NCBI GenBank assembly: GCA_902782985.1
Contig: CACZPC010000269.1
Location: 1 to 8,270 of the forward strand
DNA: 8,270 nucleotides
DNA from: Oscillospiraceae bacterium
GTDB taxonomy: Bacteria > Bacillota > Clostridia > Saccharofermentanales > Saccharofermentanaceae
Reading direction: 5' to 3'
Shown here: positions 2,900-8,270 of the stretch, piece after piece
Position numbering within the stretch: the first letter of the stretch is position 1
How the letters are laid out: each line of letters begins with the position of its first letter
Made by a program: the position numbers and the translations under genes
The notes under the pieces: model-generated
Database searches by the model: none
Seen by the model: the letters and a program-made list of their open reading frames with translations, nothing else
What the model was told of the DNA's origin: nothing

Positions 2900-3448
2900 A
2901 TGAACGATAAGCTTTCTGAGCGTAAGCGCACAGTGATCACGATATTTATGCTCGTGGTCCTCGGAGCCGTGATCGGCTGGATTTACGAAATGCTCTTCTA
3001 CAGGATCGATGCCGGACATTTCATCAGGCGCGGACAGGGAGGTCCGTGGCTTCCTATCTACGGATTCGGCGCACTGGGTCTGACACTGGTTACGTATAAG
3101 CGTAAGCTCAAGCCGCTTATCGTATTCATAGTTACATGTATAGGCTCGGGCATTATAGAATTCGGTACCGGCTGGGTGCTCTATAATTTCTTCGGCGGCA
3201 TGAGGCTCTGGGATTACAACACGGAGATCTGGAACTGGGGAAATATCGGAGGATATGTCTGCTTCAGGTCAGTCCTTATATTCGGTATATTCGGTGTTCT
3301 TTATGTTAAGTGGGCCGTCCCGGGATTCTTCAGGATGACGTCGAAGATGAGCAAAAAAGCACTGCTCGGCGTAGCAGTGCCGCTGGCTGTTATATTTTTC
3401 TCGGACATCATCTTTTCGTATATCTTAAAGCCGCTTCTGTTTAAGTGA
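2900..3448 (+). CDS. CmpB-family (PF06541/DUF1113) putative ABC transporter permease, small membrane protein
   Basis: The 182-residue product is a multi-pass membrane protein with hydrophobic segments at about 11-33, 51-66, 72-98, 116-141 and 154-177. It shows the family's conserved motifs in order: GWIYE (26-30), GPWLPIYG (48-55), an intramembrane Glu in IIEFGTGW (85-92) and LWDYN (103-107) followed by a glycine-containing helix. The family is labelled a putative ABC transporter permease, but no ATPase or binding protein is encoded nearby and the biochemical role is unproven. The start is supported by AGGGGGA (2886-2892) 7 nt upstream. The 262 bp before it contain no other gene and no promoter I would defend. 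Its TGA abuts the stop of the convergent diguanylate cyclase gene, and the minus-strand operon's terminator is embedded in codons for residues 151-161. Confidence 0.85.
   Translation: MNDKLSERKRTVITIFMLVVLGAVIGWIYEMLFYRIDAGHFIRRGQGGPWLPIYGFGALGLTLVTYKRKLKPLIVFIVTCIGSGIIEFGTGWVLYNFFGGMRLWDYNTEIWNWGNIGGYVCFRSVLIFGIFGVLYVKWAVPGFFRMTSKMSKKALLGVAVPLAVIFFSDIIFSYILKPLLFK
3353..3380 (-). terminator. Rho-independent terminator of the minus-strand signalling operon, inside the convergent CmpB-family gene
   Basis: Read on the minus strand, GCACTGCT (3380-3373) and AGCAGTGC (3366-3359) form a perfect 8-bp stem with a 6-nt loop, followed directly by six T residues (3358-3353). The stem begins 69 nt after the diguanylate cyclase stop codon at 3449. 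On the plus strand the hairpin is preceded by the A-run and not followed by T, so it should act only on the minus-strand transcript. It lies wholly inside the coding sequence of the plus-strand membrane protein. Confidence 0.75.
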
Positions 3449-4459
3449 TCAGTAGATGACTTTATTCCTTCCGCTCTCCTTGGCGGTATAAAGGTGTGAG
3501 TCGGCGATGCTTATATTTTCCTCGATCGACATCCTGTGATCGAATTCACGACATCCGAAGCTTAATGTGCATCGGATGATATTGCCGTCTGCGATTATAT
3601 CCGAATTCATCAGGGTGATACGGAGCTTTTCTGCCTTGGCGGCGGCTTCTTCGAGATTGGTATTCTGCATGACCATAATGAATTCTTCGCCTCCCCATCT
3701 GTAGGCGCAGTCATCGTCCGAGCATGCATCCGCGATAAGGCCTGCAGTATATGCCAGTACGTCATCGCCCGCGTTGTGGCCGTATGTATCGTTGACGCTC
3801 TTGAACTTATCGATATCACAGATGAACATCGACAGGGGTCTGTCACATCCGGGAGTCAAATATCTGCTGTACTTATGAGCGAAGTCATTATAAAAACCCA
3901 TCCTGTTCTTGAGCTTTGTGAGCCTGTCATGGAGAGAGTCCTCAAGGAAAGACTCCGACTCGAGTGCTATGCCGCAGATCAGGGCGGGGAGCGAGAGCTT
4001 ATGCACGTCATCCGTCTCGTTGAATCCCGTGCCGTCGAGCTTGTTTATGAGCTGGAATGCACCGATGAAATTCCCGTTGATGTCGGCTACCGGCATTACG
4101 AGTATCGACCGGGTAACATACCCCGTCTGCTTATCGACGGCGCTGTTGAAGTCCGGATCCGAATACGGGTCATTTGTCACCACGACTTTGCCAAGCCTTA
4201 AAGCCTTCCCCACAAGGCCGCTGTTATCGGGGATCACGATCTTATCGACACCTGTTGCGGATGTGGTCCATAACTGTCTTCTTCTCCTGTCCCATTTCCA
4301 GAAGCTTCCGCGGTCCGCGCCGACGATCGATTTACCGAGTTCCGTCAGATCGGAGAACAGAGAAGCATGATCGTTTTCCTTGGTCGAACACATCTCGCGG
4401 TAGAGCTTTTCGCTTGTAGCATATATGGAATCAAGTATACTGTCGGCATCTTTGTTCAT
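3449..4459 (-). CDS. GAF-GGDEF diguanylate cyclase
   Basis: This cytosolic enzyme (336 residues, no membrane segment) should make c-di-GMP from two GTP. An N-terminal GAF domain (about 33-172) is followed by HDRLTKLKNR (177-186), the usual opening of a GGDEF domain. The catalytic domain has the metal Asp215 in CDIDKFKSVND, the active GGEEF loop (256-260) and a closing AKESGRNKV. The canonical RxxD inhibitory site is absent: the position nine residues before GGEEF is Ser247, although Asp250 is present. The GAF domain resembles cyclic-nucleotide PDE/cyclase GAF domains, with FNSAVDKQTGYVTRS (104-118) and an NKFDE-like pattern (Asn139-Lys140, Phe146, Asp150-Asp151). Its ATG overlaps the stop of the upstream hydrolase gene by 4 nt (ATGA), with GGAGG (4471-4467) 7 nt upstream, so translation is probably coupled. 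It is the last gene of the operon. Confidence 0.93.
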   Translation of the reverse strand: MNKDADSILDSIYATSEKLYREMCSTKENDHASLFSDLTELGKSIVGADRGSFWKWDRRRRQLWTTSATGVDKIVIPDNSGLVGKALRLGKVVVTNDPYSDPDFNSAVDKQTGYVTRSILVMPVADINGNFIGAFQLINKLDGTGFNETDDVHKLSLPALICGIALESESFLEDSLHDRLTKLKNRMGFYNDFAHKYSRYLTPGCDRPLSMFICDIDKFKSVNDTYGHNAGDDVLAYTAGLIADACSDDDCAYRWGGEEFIMVMQNTNLEEAAAKAEKLRITLMNSDIIADGNIIRCTLSFGCREFDHRMSIEENISIADSHLYTAKESGRNKVIY

Positions 4460-5163
4460 ATGAAATCCTCCGTGTCTAAGAGCGGTGCGGGTGTGGCTCC
4501 GGTATCAGAAGCGATCTTCATGATCTCATCCTCGTTGTCCATATGCATCAGAAAGATACTGATCCCTTCTGACGTGAGTCTCTTCAAAGTGTCCCTTATA
4601 TCGCCGATATACATATGAACAGCCGATCGGTAGGCTGCAGCTTCCGTATAGAGCTGATCTCCGGGTTTCAGATAGGGGATAAACGGATCGAGCGAAACGG
4701 AATCCCCGGTATAGACCAGGTCACATCCGCTGCCCTTGAGGTAATATCCGAAGCACCTGCCTTCCAGTGAAGGCGCGTGAGTTGTCGGGATCACGGCTTT
4801 TATAATGTCGAGCCCGGAATCGGATGCGGTAACGAGCTTATACCAGTCATCCTCGCAGCCGTCCAGGCGTGACAGCGCGAAATGCATATCCTCCATCACC
4901 TCGGAGGACGGAGCTATTACCGTCACCGGTATGTGGCCGATGAAATATTCATAATCGATCAGCATCGCAATGCCGCTTATGTGGTCGCTGTGAGTGTGAG
5001 TGATAAGGATCTTTATGGCGGAGAATCGTGACAGATCGAGTTTTTTGAGCTTAACGAAAGCGGACATGGGGCAGTCTATCAGGATCAGCTCGTCTCCGCA
5101 TACCATGAGAGCACTGTTATGCTCATCGCTGAATGCCGAACCTCGTCCGAGAAACCTAAGCAT
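4456..5163 (-). CDS. Metallo-beta-lactamase-fold hydrolase, RNase Z/class II phosphodiesterase-like
   Basis: The 235-residue soluble protein begins MLRFLGRGSAFSDEHNSALM, like the first strands of RNase Z-type MBL proteins. It has the di-metal site: HTHSDH (His56, His58, Asp60, His61), His129 in TTHAPS, Asp154 in YTGDS and His207 in LMHMDNE. LYTEAAAY (171-178) resembles the HEAT-like segment of RNase Z relatives. Metals are expected to be Zn or similar. Such enzymes cleave phosphodiester bonds in tRNA precursors or cyclic nucleotides, but many relatives act on other substrates. It is shorter than typical RNase Z (about 300) and I see no clear exosite insertion, so a housekeeping tRNase role is unlikely. 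Location between an adenylate cyclase and a diguanylate cyclase suggests a nucleotide substrate. The start lies 1 nt after the cyclase stop and has a GGGGAGG site (5174-5168). Confidence 0.85.
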   Translation of the reverse strand: MLRFLGRGSAFSDEHNSALMVCGDELILIDCPMSAFVKLKKLDLSRFSAIKILITHTHSDHISGIAMLIDYEYFIGHIPVTVIAPSSEVMEDMHFALSRLDGCEDDWYKLVTASDSGLDIIKAVIPTTHAPSLEGRCFGYYLKGSGCDLVYTGDSVSLDPFIPYLKPGDQLYTEAAAYRSAVHMYIGDIRDTLKRLTSEGISIFLMHMDNEDEIMKIASDTGATPAPLLDTEDFI

Positions 5164-5164
5164 A

Positions 5165-6955
5165 TTACCTCCCCGACAGTGACTCGAGCTTCAAGACCTC
5201 AAAGCCGTCTGCCTTTCCTTTAAGTTTAATAGAATCCCCAAGCGAAGTAAATGAAGCTCTCCCTTCGAGCTTATCGGCTACGACGCGGCTGATATAGACT
5301 GTACCTCCCGGTGCATTGGCCTCGAGTCTGGCGGCGGTATTTACGGTATCTCCGATCGCGGTGTAGTCCATGTGTCTTTCGGAACCCATATTGCCGACTA
5401 CCGCAGGACCGAAATGAACGCCTACGCCTACGCGCAATTCCTCGCCGATCTCATTCTTGAGCTCTTCGGATACTCTTGCTGCTCCTTCTACTATCTCGAC
5501 AGCGGCCTTGCATGCATGGTAAACGGGATCTTCCTGTTCGAGCGGGGCTCCCCAGAAAGCCATCGTTGCATCTCCGACGAACTTATCCAGCGTACCGTTA
5601 TTATCCTCGATGACATTGCTCGTCATGGTCAGATATTTATTGAGTATGAATACTATCTTCCGGGGCTCCAGACGCTCCGACATGGTAGTAAATCCTCTTA
5701 CGTCCACGAAGAGGACCGCTATATCACAGAGCTTTCCGCCGAGTGAGAGATTATCCGTACCTTCCTTCAGGATCTCACTTACGATATTCGGCGCGACATA
5801 TCTCTCGAAAGTCCTGGTTACCTTCTGCCTTTCAAGAGCGGCTTTCACATAGTGATGGGCGATGGATACCACGAAGAGCATTATCGTTGCCAGCAGTACG
5901 GGGAAAGCGTGCAGCACCGTTCCTGCTGCGTACAAGGCGACGCAGATACCTGTATTGGCGGCTATCGAGGCGGCACAGACGACGGCAGAGACCCTGATCT
6001 TTTTTCCAATGAATATGTATGAGAGGACGAAGCTTACGGCAAATAAGAAGATCAGCTGAGGGATCTCCGGGGCTTCTTTCTTGAAGTTCTGTTCGAGCAG
6101 ACTCTGGATGATGTTGGCCTGGACTTCCACGCCGTACATCTTGGTAGCAGGATCCACTGAAGTGAAATAGTCGTCTGTAAGAGCCGACGCATAAGGTCCG
6201 ATAAGTACGATCTTACCTTCGTAATAACTCGGATCGACCTCGCCGTTGATCAGGTCGGCGATCGATATATCATCAGAATATCCTCCGGGAAGACAGGTAA
6301 AAGGTACATAGAACTGTCCCCTGGAATTGACGGGAGGCTGCCCGCACATACCGTCTCCGAGAAATAGTGATGCGGCCGTATAAGCCATCGAATAGACTCT
6401 GCTGCCATCCGGGAGATCCAGATACAGGAGTGAATGACGCATTATACCGTCAGTATCGTACATCGCATTTATATGACCTGTATCAGATACATTCTTAAGA
6501 TCTTCGAAAGGCTCGTCGTAGCTTATTATCGAATAATCATCAACGGTGACGATATCAGCTCCGAATGTCCTTGTAGTACCGAACTCCGCTGCTGAAGCGA
6601 CTACAACATTCGGAAGGCCTGATACGGCGCTTACAAGATGTGCATCAGCCTCGGGATCCGTCGTCCCGGAATAAAGAGTATCTATGGCTACTACCGCAGG
6701 CAGACGATCCGGATCAGATGCCAGAGCCTCCAGTGCCGAAGCCATGATATTTCGGTCCCAGTTATAGTATGAGCCGAATTCCGAAAGCGCCCGCTCATCT
6801 ATTCCTATGACTACAATATCTTCGGATGCCGCAGCAGGAGTCTGATACAGCTTATCCTGAAGCCATCTGTCCGGTCTTCTCAGCATGCCGCTTCCGGCAA
6901 AGAGTGTGATCGCCAGCGACAGGATGGCACAAGTTTTAAGACGACTTAGTTTCAT
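5165..6955 (-). CDS. CHASE2-domain class III adenylate cyclase, membrane-bound
   Basis: The 596-residue receptor cyclase converts ATP to cAMP. An N-terminal membrane segment (about 8-24) precedes an extracytoplasmic CHASE2 sensor (about 30-292, with DIVVIGIDERALSEFG and GKIVLIGPYA as typical blocks). Three closely spaced membrane helices follow (about 299-317, 321-344, 347-370), then a cytosolic cyclase domain (about 405-585). Catalytic residues are complete: metal Asp418 (FVDVRGFT) and Asp462 (DKFVGDA), Lys458 and Thr532 at the base-selecting positions, and Asn539 and Arg543 (VNTAARLE) for the transition state. A Lys/Thr pair at these positions is known from cyanobacterial adenylate cyclases and supports ATP over GTP. 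The domain should work as a homodimer. The ATG lies 3 nt after the fecR-like stop codon; its ribosome site is weak (GGA at 6964-6962), so it probably relies on translational coupling. The 3' end contains the next gene's ribosome site. Confidence 0.93.
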   Translation of the reverse strand: MKLSRLKTCAILSLAITLFAGSGMLRRPDRWLQDKLYQTPAAASEDIVVIGIDERALSEFGSYYNWDRNIMASALEALASDPDRLPAVVAIDTLYSGTTDPEADAHLVSAVSGLPNVVVASAAEFGTTRTFGADIVTVDDYSIISYDEPFEDLKNVSDTGHINAMYDTDGIMRHSLLYLDLPDGSRVYSMAYTAASLFLGDGMCGQPPVNSRGQFYVPFTCLPGGYSDDISIADLINGEVDPSYYEGKIVLIGPYASALTDDYFTSVDPATKMYGVEVQANIIQSLLEQNFKKEAPEIPQLIFLFAVSFVLSYIFIGKKIRVSAVVCAASIAANTGICVALYAAGTVLHAFPVLLATIMLFVVSIAHHYVKAALERQKVTRTFERYVAPNIVSEILKEGTDNLSLGGKLCDIAVLFVDVRGFTTMSERLEPRKIVFILNKYLTMTSNVIEDNNGTLDKFVGDATMAFWGAPLEQEDPVYHACKAAVEIVEGAARVSEELKNEIGEELRVGVGVHFGPAVVGNMGSERHMDYTAIGDTVNTAARLEANAPGGTVYISRVVADKLEGRASFTSLGDSIKLKGKADGFEVLKLESLSGR

Positions 6956-6958
6956 GCT

Positions 6959-8270
6959 TTATCCGATTACCTGACCGTTCGGATTATCATCGTCTCTTAT
7001 GGGATCATCATCATTCCCGGGATCATCATTTCCGGGATCACCGGTCGGATCGGTCTCCTCAGGCTCGGATGATCCCGTAGGATCGGGCTCGTTATTTGCC
7101 TCTGTAGGTGTGGGGCCGGGATCCGTTTCTTGGGTCGGAGAAGGTACGGGAGAAGGAGTGGGTGTGTTCGATGGTCTTGTTGTCGGTCTCGGCGTAGGAG
7201 TGGGTGAATTCGTTGCTCCCGAAGGCCTTGGAGTTGATGTCGGTCTTGGCGTAGGAGTATTTCCGGATGTCGGTCTCGGTGTAGGATCAGATGTTCCCGA
7301 ACCTGATCCGGAGCTGCCGCTGTTACCGTTATTATTATCATTATCGTTATTGTCCGAGGATGATCCGCCCGAGCTGCTCGTGGGCCTGGGTGTGGGACTG
7401 TAGTCATCATCGTCATCCCAATAATCGTCATCTTCATCATCTTCCGGTTCAGGCGTCGGAGTGCCCGGTGCGGGAGATGGAGTAGGAGTTGACGTAGGAG
7501 TGGGAGTAGCAAGTGTCGTCTCTTCGGTCTCTTCCGGAAGCTCATCGGGAGTTCCCTTGGCAAGTGACTTGATAAGATCCGGATCCCATCCGGTATCCGC
7601 ACAGACCTTCTCAAGAAGGACTGCATTATTGGCGATTATATTAAGTACGAATTCGGGTATATCATTTTCAGTCAGATTATCCAGAGTGAATACCACCGTA
7701 TCGGAACTGCCGTTAAGGATAAAGACACTGACTCTCTGTCCGGCATAGCAGTCGGTCTCCTTGGTCTCGCCCGTAGAGGGATTGATGCCTGTAACATGTA
7801 CGTGTCCGTCGGTAATGAATACGGTGGGATTACCGTTCCTGTCCACATATACATAACCCGATGTTCCTCTTATGCCGACTACCATGGTCGATGTCTTGAT
7901 ATCGAATGTCTCATCGGCATCGAGCGGCTTCGTGACATTAAAGAAGAGACCGCCCCTGGTAAGGTTCATTTCGATCTTCTTCCTGGTCTTGGAAAATTCG
8001 GCACGGCTGTTGGGCTGAAGCGTGATGACCTTATCATTATCAAGTCCTATGGATGCCATACCGTCTTCGCCGGTGGAAAGCGCATCACCGCTTTGAAATC
8101 TCATATTGTTCTTAAGCGGTTTATTTCCTGTAGAAGTCTCGAGCGTTACCGTTCCCTGGACTCTCAGAAGTCTCATGGTGGTGGCGGTATAATTTGACGA
8201 AATGCATATGATAACTACGGGGATAATGATCGCCAGTGCGATGATCCCCGCGATAATGGCTTTCTTCTTA
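6959..8270 (-). CDS. Membrane-anchored FecR-domain protein with Pro/Thr- and Asp-rich tail, 5' end cut by window edge
   Basis: The open frame continues to the right edge without an in-frame ATG above 8176. The 31 codons upstream of that ATG encode KKK followed by a hydrophobic helix (AIIAGIIALAIIIPVVIIC), so the real start is beyond 8270 and the protein has an N-terminal signal anchor. Numbering from the Met codon at 8176, a FecR domain spans about 3-155, with GDALSTGEDGMASIGL, LQPNSRAEF, VVGIRGTSGYVYV and ITDGHVHV blocks. A short helical linker (about 165-215) precedes a low-complexity tail of about 180 residues: TPTPRPTS-like repeats, an acidic DDEDDDYWDDDDDY, an Asn/Ser/Gly stretch and a final Asp/Pro-rich end. 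FecR domains act outside the membrane, classically with sigma/anti-sigma systems, but no sigma factor is visible here. It is the first visible gene of the operon with the CHASE2 cyclase, so it may be a co-sensor or cell-wall-spanning stalk; this is an inference. Confidence 0.88.
   Translation of the reverse strand, partial: KKKAIIAGIIALAIIIPVVIICISSNYTATTMRLLRVQGTVTLETSTGNKPLKNNMRFQSGDALSTGEDGMASIGLDNDKVITLQPNSRAEFSKTRKKIEMNLTRGGLFFNVTKPLDADETFDIKTSTMVVGIRGTSGYVYVDRNGNPTVFITDGHVHVTGINPSTGETKETDCYAGQRVSVFILNGSSDTVVFTLDNLTENDIPEFVLNIIANNAVLLEKVCADTGWDPDLIKSLAKGTPDELPEETEETTLATPTPTSTPTPSPAPGTPTPEPEDDEDDDYWDDDDDYSPTPRPTSSSGGSSSDNNDNDNNNGNSGSSGSGSGTSDPTPRPTSGNTPTPRPTSTPRPSGATNSPTPTPRPTTRPSNTPTPSPVPSPTQETDPGPTPTEANNEPDPTGSSEPEETDPTGDPGNDDPGNDDDPIRDDDNPNGQVIG
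6975..7513 (-). repeat. Low-complexity Pro/Thr/Asp/Ser coding repeat region of the FecR-like gene
   Basis: This segment encodes the disordered tail. It holds degenerate short repeats that translate to TPTPRPT units. A 19-bp unit, TGTCGGTCTYGGYGTAGGA on the plus strand, occurs at 7181-7199, 7238-7256 and 7268-7286 with one or two differences. Other parts encode runs of Asp or Asn. Such DNA is prone to slippage and length variation between strains. Its spacing is irregular and it is in frame throughout, so it is not a CRISPR. Confidence 0.8.

Follow-up and report, generated by a model that had tools for sequence, protein, structure and literature searches.

Here we examined a stretch of DNA of 8,270 bases from an Oscillospiraceae bacterium (the window, which is the entire contig CACZPC010000269.1, C269 in our numbering, of genome G000, an assembly of 1.68 Mb in 319 contigs that is 73% complete). 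Its minus strand carries four closely packed genes, those of a FecR-domain membrane protein, a CHASE2 class III adenylate cyclase (AC), a hydrolase of the metallo-beta-lactamase (MBL) fold predicted to be a cyclic-nucleotide phosphodiesterase (PDE), and a GAF-GGDEF diguanylate cyclase (DGC). We found this gene order to be conserved in related clostridia, and we give slightly better than an even chance to the view that the cluster is a signalling relay, in which FecR proteins and CHASE2 control the synthesis of cyclic AMP (cAMP), cAMP gates the DGC through its GAF domain, cyclic di-GMP (c-di-GMP) is the output and the MBL protein erases cAMP. Two results go beyond the preliminary description of this DNA: the MBL and GAF-GGDEF parts are one polypeptide in most relatives, and the GAF domain is, to judge from its sequence, of the cyclic-nucleotide-binding type, by which it would supply the link between cAMP and c-di-GMP.

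Gene layout and domain content

The open reading frames agree with the four minus-strand genes, and with the junctions between them, that the preliminary description had listed: 3 nt separate FecR from AC, 1 nt separates AC from MBL, and the MBL and GAF-GGDEF genes share a 4-nt ATGA overlap (4456..4459). The FecR gene (6959..8270; open frame 8269-6959) is cut at its 5' end by the contig edge, just ahead of an N-terminal hydrophobic segment (residues 5-23), and encodes a FecR domain at residues 63-157 of the open frame (PF04773, 46.8 bits against a cut-off of 24) followed by a tail of about 220 residues rich in P, T, D and S. The AC (5165..6955; 596 residues) has CHASE2 at 13-309 (125.9 bits, cut-off 26.3) and a catalytic domain at 411-582 (Guanylate_cyc, 83.6 bits, cut-off 21.9), with hydrophobic segments at 7-25, 298-316, 322-340 and 347-365, that is, one before CHASE2 and three at or after its end. 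The MBL protein (4456..5163; 235 residues) carries the motif THTHSDH at residues 55-61 and matches Lactamase_B_2, whereas the DGC (3449..4459; 336 residues) matches GAF (40.5 bits, cut-off 22.4) and GGDEF (127.3 bits, cut-off 23.8). That the four genes form one pathway and are translationally coupled is what we infer.

Conservation of gene order and fusion of the MBL and GAF-GGDEF domains

We surveyed 85 genomes of the genus, taking AC matches at E ≤ 1e-20 and MBL matches at E ≤ 1e-15. AC matches were present in 67 genomes and MBL matches likewise in 67, with a full CHASE2-AC, either of the window's type (type 1) or of a second type described below, in 66. A type-1 AC lies upstream of the MBL gene, on the same strand and contig, in 56 of the 67 MBL-bearing genomes; seen from the other side, 56 of 58 type-1 CHASE2-ACs have an MBL gene downstream on the same strand, the remaining two (G011 and G062) being at contig ends. 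The distance between the ends of the AC and MBL matches, counting the AC stop, was 4-156 nt in 54 of these 56 genomes and was enlarged by an inserted gene in the other two (1547 and 2015 nt). The order FecR, AC, MBL, DGC holds in the genus loci, with one to four FecR-domain genes preceding the AC in most of the annotated ones. The sister genus, in which 18 loci had an MBL match, showed AC, MBL and DGC in this order in all 12 loci fetched, with FecR in 11. The order thus recurs in related genomes, the test that the preliminary description had itself proposed; its view that the arrangement is unusual did not stand, the cluster being instead common in these clostridia of the rumen and gut. By chance, a GGDEF gene would be expected in the 2 kb downstream of a given AC, and on its strand, in about 0.6-1.5% of genomes, and one was found in 10 of 10; these ten genomes were chosen from known carriers of the cluster, and the fair count is the 56 of 58 type-1 ACs with a downstream MBL. 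In two loci (L047 and L069) unrelated genes stand between AC and MBL-DGC and leave the order unbroken; their products are a protein of 442 residues, encoded on the other strand and CAP-like by eye, and a protein of 628 residues that by eye is a membrane protein.

The MBL and GAF-GGDEF parts form a single protein of about 570 residues in 60 of the 67 MBL matches of the genus (open frame of at least 554 residues; in the annotated loci the same open reading frame matched both parts). The other seven frames are split in G000 and G058, broken in G083, cut by contig ends in G062, G073 and G076, and 323 residues long in G034; MBL and DGC are also split in two sister-genus genomes (G094 and G100). Likewise, 76 of the best 120 protein matches to the window's DGC are fusions (at least 530 residues, with [TS]HxHxDH and GGEEF) and 44 are not. 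The ATGA overlap of the window marks the point at which the single protein of most relatives is here divided between two genes. This split looks genuine, because the window and its closest relative, G058, both have a GGAGG upstream of the DGC start, ending 7 nt short of it. Since most relatives fuse MBL and GAF-GGDEF, the four-gene layout amounts to a receptor, a cyclase and a three-domain protein, the last of them split.

To look beyond the genus we took the best 80 of 590 relatives matched by the DGC alignment, some of which are contigs of the genus genomes, with flanks of up to 8 kb per side. These relatives are mostly metagenome-assembled genomes from rumen and gut (Saccharofermentans, Ruminococcaceae, Clostridiales, Lachnospiraceae, Eubacterium and Oscillospiraceae), and the linkage is present across Lachnospiraceae, Eubacterium and others. 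Among the 80 loci, the MBL adjoins the DGC in 72, an AC is nearby in 62 and FecR in 53, with AC and MBL both upstream on the same strand in 57; five loci (L098, L148, L158, L164 and L170) have rearranged orders. The identity of the AC in the 62 loci is at least 50% in 46, 35-37% in 15, and 45% in one partial sequence. As 15 of the 62 ACs fall at 35-37%, the same MBL and DGC pair occurs with two AC types, the second, about 37% identical, adjoining it in Lachnospiraceae. Genes for a short FecR protein and a large protein usually stand ahead of the second-type AC, which also occurs away from MBL-DGC in 15 genus genomes. Such a second FecR/CHASE2-AC system was seen in L052-L066 (for example, L058:4862-7939), where a 37-39% identical CHASE2-AC comes after a short FecR protein and either one or two large proteins. 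The large proteins reach 1797 residues where uncut, and the one scanned gave a single weak Pfam match (Glucodextran_B, 33.6 bits); they may be a surface structure watched by the sensor.

Joint inheritance of the adenylate cyclase and the MBL protein

Among the 49 genus genomes that are at least 90% complete, 37 have both AC and MBL, none has the AC only, one (G083) has the MBL only and 11 have neither. A two-by-two table that ignores phylogeny overstates this association (Fisher 4e-10), and we therefore used a tree of the rpoB domain, built from one stretch of about 1160 nt in 63 genomes, midpoint-rooted and with weak nodes. The other 22 of the 85 genomes stand outside this tree: 19 had no rpoB match, and G004, G070 and G013 were dropped for having only a partial one, G000 being among those missing; G025 and G055 had two rpoB copies, one of which was used. 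AC (of either type) and MBL agree at 61 of the 63 tips, the exceptions being G083 and G021. By parsimony with one fixed tie-breaking rule, AC and MBL each change on seven of the 124 branches and share six of these (p 1e-8, a value that is indicative only). AC and MBL have therefore been gained and lost jointly.

These results bear on the possibility that the genes cluster neutrally, through co-expression in one lineage and with no direct biochemical connection. Two loci, L073 and L081, are in keeping with it, as FecR and AC are gone there from similar flanks while MBL-DGC is kept. Against it, the genes stay linked where their order is rearranged and with either of two AC types, MBL and DGC often form one protein, the changes of AC and MBL coincide on the tree, and adjacency by chance is expected at about 1% per genome; we regard neutral clustering, already disfavoured, as very improbable. 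Mere chance neighbourhood is ruled out by the conserved order, the fusion and the joint change. In L073 and L081 (G020 and G021) the MBL-GAF-GGDEF gene stays between an FtsX-like permease upstream, which was matched by eye, and c4, a permease, c13 and GntR downstream. A lone MBL remnant in G083 (L080:8007-8699) adjoins a gene of the DHH phosphatase family, and the same gene is found after the cluster in G080 (L082), where the cluster is intact.

Active-site residues of the two cyclases and the type of the GAF domain

The preliminary description had held that both cyclases keep their catalytic residues, and alignments that include the window as one row bear this out. In the AC, which combines CHASE2 with a cyclase domain, all 61 aligned sequences, covering both AC types, have D418, K458, D462, T532, N539 and R543. 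In class IIIb adenylate cyclases, of which several respond to bicarbonate, a Lys together with a Thr makes up the purine-pocket pair; we take K458 and T532 to be this pair and the others to be the metal and transition-state residues, and on these grounds the product is probably cAMP. In the DGC the GGEEF motif (residues 256-260) is invariant in 81 of 81 sequences. Both enzymes look active by their residues.

The GAF domain (residues 33-149, with the motif residues N139, K140, F146, D150 and D151) lies N-terminal to this catalytically complete GGDEF domain. Its best solved relatives are PmGH, CyaB2 and PDE10A GAF-B, the latter two in cAMP-bound form, with PDE2A also matched, and it is on its nearness to PmGH, CyaB2 and PDE10A that the assignment to the cyclic-nucleotide-binding type is based. 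In the 81 sequences N139 is kept in 81, K140 in 80, F146 in 79, D151 in 81, T112 in 80 and T116 in 81. The ligand would most plausibly be cAMP, and its binding would activate rather than inhibit the GGDEF domain. Since the RxxD inhibitory site is absent from the window's DGC (S247..D250; Arg at 247 in 8 of the 81 sequences), feedback by the product on the GGDEF domain is not expected.

The MBL protein and its probable substrate

The residues T55, H56, H58, D60, H61, H129, D154 and H207 of the MBL protein are invariant in an alignment of 52 sequences, and the His and Asp ligands H56, H58, D60, H61, H129, D154 and H207 are kept in 72 of 72. The protein thus has the PF12706 domain (47.2 bits, cut-off 27), the [T/S]HxHxDH motif and the distal metal ligands of atypical class-II PDEs, of which the first two are given as marks in the part of PMC9293780 available to us, and its best structural matches are compact proteins of the MBLBt2/Apyc1/YhfI type. 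It belongs to a structural family suited to a cyclic-nucleotide phosphodiesterase, and cAMP is its likely substrate. As an RNase Z proper it was rejected, with NCBIfam equivalog scores of 49.5 (cut-off 252) and 41.4 (cut-off 293), and so it was as an Apyc1 (PF23023, 33 bits against a cut-off of 50), the position of the catalytic Glu74, mapped from the HxHxDH motif, being A, G, P, S or T in 72 of 72 sequences.

In a different explanation the MBL protein acts on c-di-GMP, pGpG or RNA, and MBL-GAF-GGDEF would, like GGDEF-EAL proteins, be a c-di-GMP enzyme with two functions. Against it, the MBL gene comes after the AC in 56 of 67 genomes and shares its gains and losses, the compact structural matches point elsewhere and the RNase Z score falls far short of its cut-off; we consider this explanation improbable. 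A further candidate, a Pycsar-like antiphage system in which cyclic nucleotides signal and the MBL is a self-protection nuclease, draws on matches of the PADLOC PycC models to the cyclase domain (best 110 bits) and on the weak match of the MBL to the anti-Pycsar protein Apyc1. The PycC models, however, contain the class III cyclase domain themselves, CHASE2 and FecR are parts for sensing at the surface, the MBL is below the Apyc1 cut-off and without its Glu, and no PADLOC match at E ≤ 0.01 was found for FecR, MBL or DGC, hence no effector beside the cyclase within the contig. We rejected this candidate, to which we attach almost no weight.

A proposed relay from cAMP to c-di-GMP

In the relay that we favour, FecR proteins, which from adjacency and membrane anatomy would act on CHASE2 outside the cell, would together with it read a cue at the cell surface and switch on cAMP synthesis, and repeated FecR genes could feed several cues into one output. 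The AC would make cAMP beside a protein that both senses it (GAF) and removes it (MBL). Bound by the GAF domain of the neighbouring DGC, cAMP would drive c-di-GMP synthesis, so that c-di-GMP would be raised while cAMP is present, and hydrolysis of cAMP by the MBL would end the signal; in most relatives this would occur on the same chain, with the duration set at the input. A bolder formulation, which we advance tentatively and hold at somewhat less than an even chance, is that MBL-GAF-GGDEF is a messenger converter in a single protein, which senses and spends cAMP and produces c-di-GMP, with FecR/CHASE2 cyclases dedicated to driving it; in clostridia of the rumen and gut cAMP would then be a private line feeding a c-di-GMP switch.

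Several observations weigh against this relay. In the GAF domain the match to the NKFDE motif is incomplete, its D position being acidic in 50 of 81 sequences and the adjacent E position being Asp in 81 of 81; in 72 of 81 a Ser occupies the position aligned to the cAMP-stacking Ile308 of CyaB2 GAFb, in a loop where the alignment is uncertain; and for PmGH, the closest GAF by sequence, no GAF ligand is named in the available part of PMC4159591. In Ruminococcus, relatives of the MBL protein that are 45-49% identical follow a UPF0227 alpha/beta hydrolase within one chain (for example, P0049 and other matches of about 406 residues), and because these fusions use the same MBL family the fold alone leaves the substrate undecided. 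Three of the rearranged loci (L158, L164 and L170) have AC and DGC with no MBL found. Eleven genus genomes have no type-1 AC next to the MBL on the same contig; seven of them carry the second AC type elsewhere, and in G021 (76% complete) and G071 (68%) an MBL was found with no CHASE2-AC. Two Oscillospiraceae genomes, G122 and G123 (3.4 and 4.2 Mb, of unstated completeness), have MBL-GAF-GGDEF, and no class III cyclase or CHASE2 was found in either. Finally, proteins with the cNMP_binding domain, which are other possible cAMP receptors, occur in 72 of the 85 genus genomes.

The remaining absences are of other kinds. In G062 the AC is on a different contig from the MBL, and G083 (94% complete) has no CHASE2-AC, an in-frame TGA in its MBL and no DGC after it. 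No AC was found in 18 of the best 80 loci; the genomes of 12 of these were searched for class III cyclases and nine were positive; in a further one, G126, a contig edge carries part of a CHASE2 domain, and the last two are G122 and G123. Among the nine, G125 has its AC and the start of its MBL together at a contig edge (L186), for which reason the assembly has probably cut the cluster, and G117 and G124 have only a cyclase of about 945 residues with no CHASE2, that of G124 lying about 2 kb past its DGC (L108). The other six AC-less loci are L092, L094, L096 and L097, on genus-genome contigs, L093, probably also so (G062), and L160.

Some of these points would fit two parallel outputs, in which FecR/CHASE2 controls cAMP, the DGC answers a different GAF ligand (cGMP, GDP or a small molecule), and the operon is shared because both serve one switch. 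The Ser at the Ile308 position and the state of G122 and G123 agree with this, as do, in the parts of these sources available to us, the statement that most GAF ligands are unknown (PMC4937426) and the binding of GDP by the GAF domain of DcpA (PMC8846402). Set against it are the nearness of the GAF domain to cAMP-binding GAFs, its retention of the N, K, F and invariant Asp of the cyclic-nucleotide motif, and the coincidence of AC and MBL changes along branches of the rpoB tree, and we judge parallel outputs to be unlikely, while deserving the most attention among the alternatives to the cAMP-gated relay. The MBL-GAF-GGDEF proteins of Oscillospiraceae at L171:7275-9014 and in L169, from genomes where no class III cyclase or CHASE2 was found, keep the GAF motif residues.

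Because cNMP_binding proteins are so frequent, we rejected the idea that the GAF domain is the sole cAMP receptor in this genus (G000 itself, at 73% completeness, gave none). A tandem cNMP_binding protein of about 300 residues is encoded just upstream of FecR in four genus loci, L047 (4500-5429), L069, L070 and L083, which suggests that cAMP has a second receptor there, and tandem proteins of this kind directly precede a class III cyclase of about 430 residues in L085, L086 and L089; they are likely a second cAMP receptor family. On the output side, the DGC is one among many in its genome, which has 26 GGDEF matches (17-39 in nine relatives and 290 over the ten genomes). PilZ was not found in the 10 genomes searched, in a search where 5 of 14 controls matched, and a search for the c-di-GMP-I riboswitch gave 0 of 10 genomes with no control matched either and is uninformative.

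Sequences flanking the cluster in the window

A gene for a CmpB-like membrane protein (2900-3448, plus strand) converges on the cluster, its stop abutting the GGDEF stop with zero gap. Inside it lies a candidate intrinsic terminator (3358..3381, minus strand), the best-paired terminator-like site of that strand, with nine pairs and a T run at 3381-3358, 67 nt beyond the GGDEF stop; it is a weak candidate because this consensus scan found 10 sites where 6.0 were expected. An Rfam search of the window gave no match at the gathering score.

Comparison with known systems and significance

A few single proteins (Lcd1, Tlr0485 and Bd1971) are known to connect cAMP with c-di-GMP; in the cluster described here, what makes, removes and senses cAMP appears to be encoded alongside the c-di-GMP output and to be inherited together with it. 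If the relay is real, it would be a defined surface-sensing route for uncultured or little-studied clostridia, in which the function of their FecR proteins becomes testable, and a compact natural converter between two second messengers; the cue read by FecR/CHASE2 and the role of cAMP in these clostridia would be directly testable. In the open full-text literature, outside which most subscription papers lie, we found no report of the four-part union, the MBL-GAF-GGDEF fusion or the joint inheritance, the nearest being PMC9239204.

Each half of the cluster has a precedent, as far as the accessible parts of the sources go. In Campylobacterota a cluster holds a CHASE2-AC, a cAMP phosphodiesterase, FecR and TPR proteins (PMC9239204) and so resembles ours in bringing a FecR protein, a CHASE2-AC and a phosphodiesterase together; it differs in that no DGC is named there, and its phosphodiesterase is set beside our MBL by description only. 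No TPR was found among the window proteins scanned with Pfam, in a contig that ends inside FecR, and the flanks of the relatives were scanned in part. The second half recalls Lcd1 of Leptospira interrogans (da Costa Vasconcelos et al. 2017), a GAF-GGDEF protein activated by cAMP (PMC8846402, PMC6717892), beside which Tlr0485 is a further precedent (PMC8846402). The likeness is one of architecture, the GAF standing where cAMP could gate c-di-GMP synthesis through it; unlike Lcd1, which we compare by its description and not by its sequence, the DGC here is encoded with, and usually fused to, a candidate MBL PDE, follows a cyclase gene, and has a cAMP activation that is predicted.

With the atypical class-II PDEs (Rv1339, CpdA of C. 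glutamicum, and YhfI as structural template; PMC9293780, as available to us) the MBL protein shares PF12706, [T/S]HxHxDH, the compact MBL fold and a kinship to RNase Z, but here it is fused to GAF-GGDEF in most relatives and its PDE activity is predicted only. From Apyc1, described in the accessible part of PMC9117128 as an anti-Pycsar cyclic NMP phosphodiesterase, it is set apart by its score under the Pfam cut-off and by the lack of conservation at Glu74. The closest analogy in design is with the mammalian GAF-PDEs (PDE2/5/10) and with CyaB1/CyaB2, in which a GAF sensor of cyclic nucleotides stands in the same chain as an enzyme that metabolises them; what the clostridial proteins would add is a further domain that makes a different messenger, c-di-GMP.

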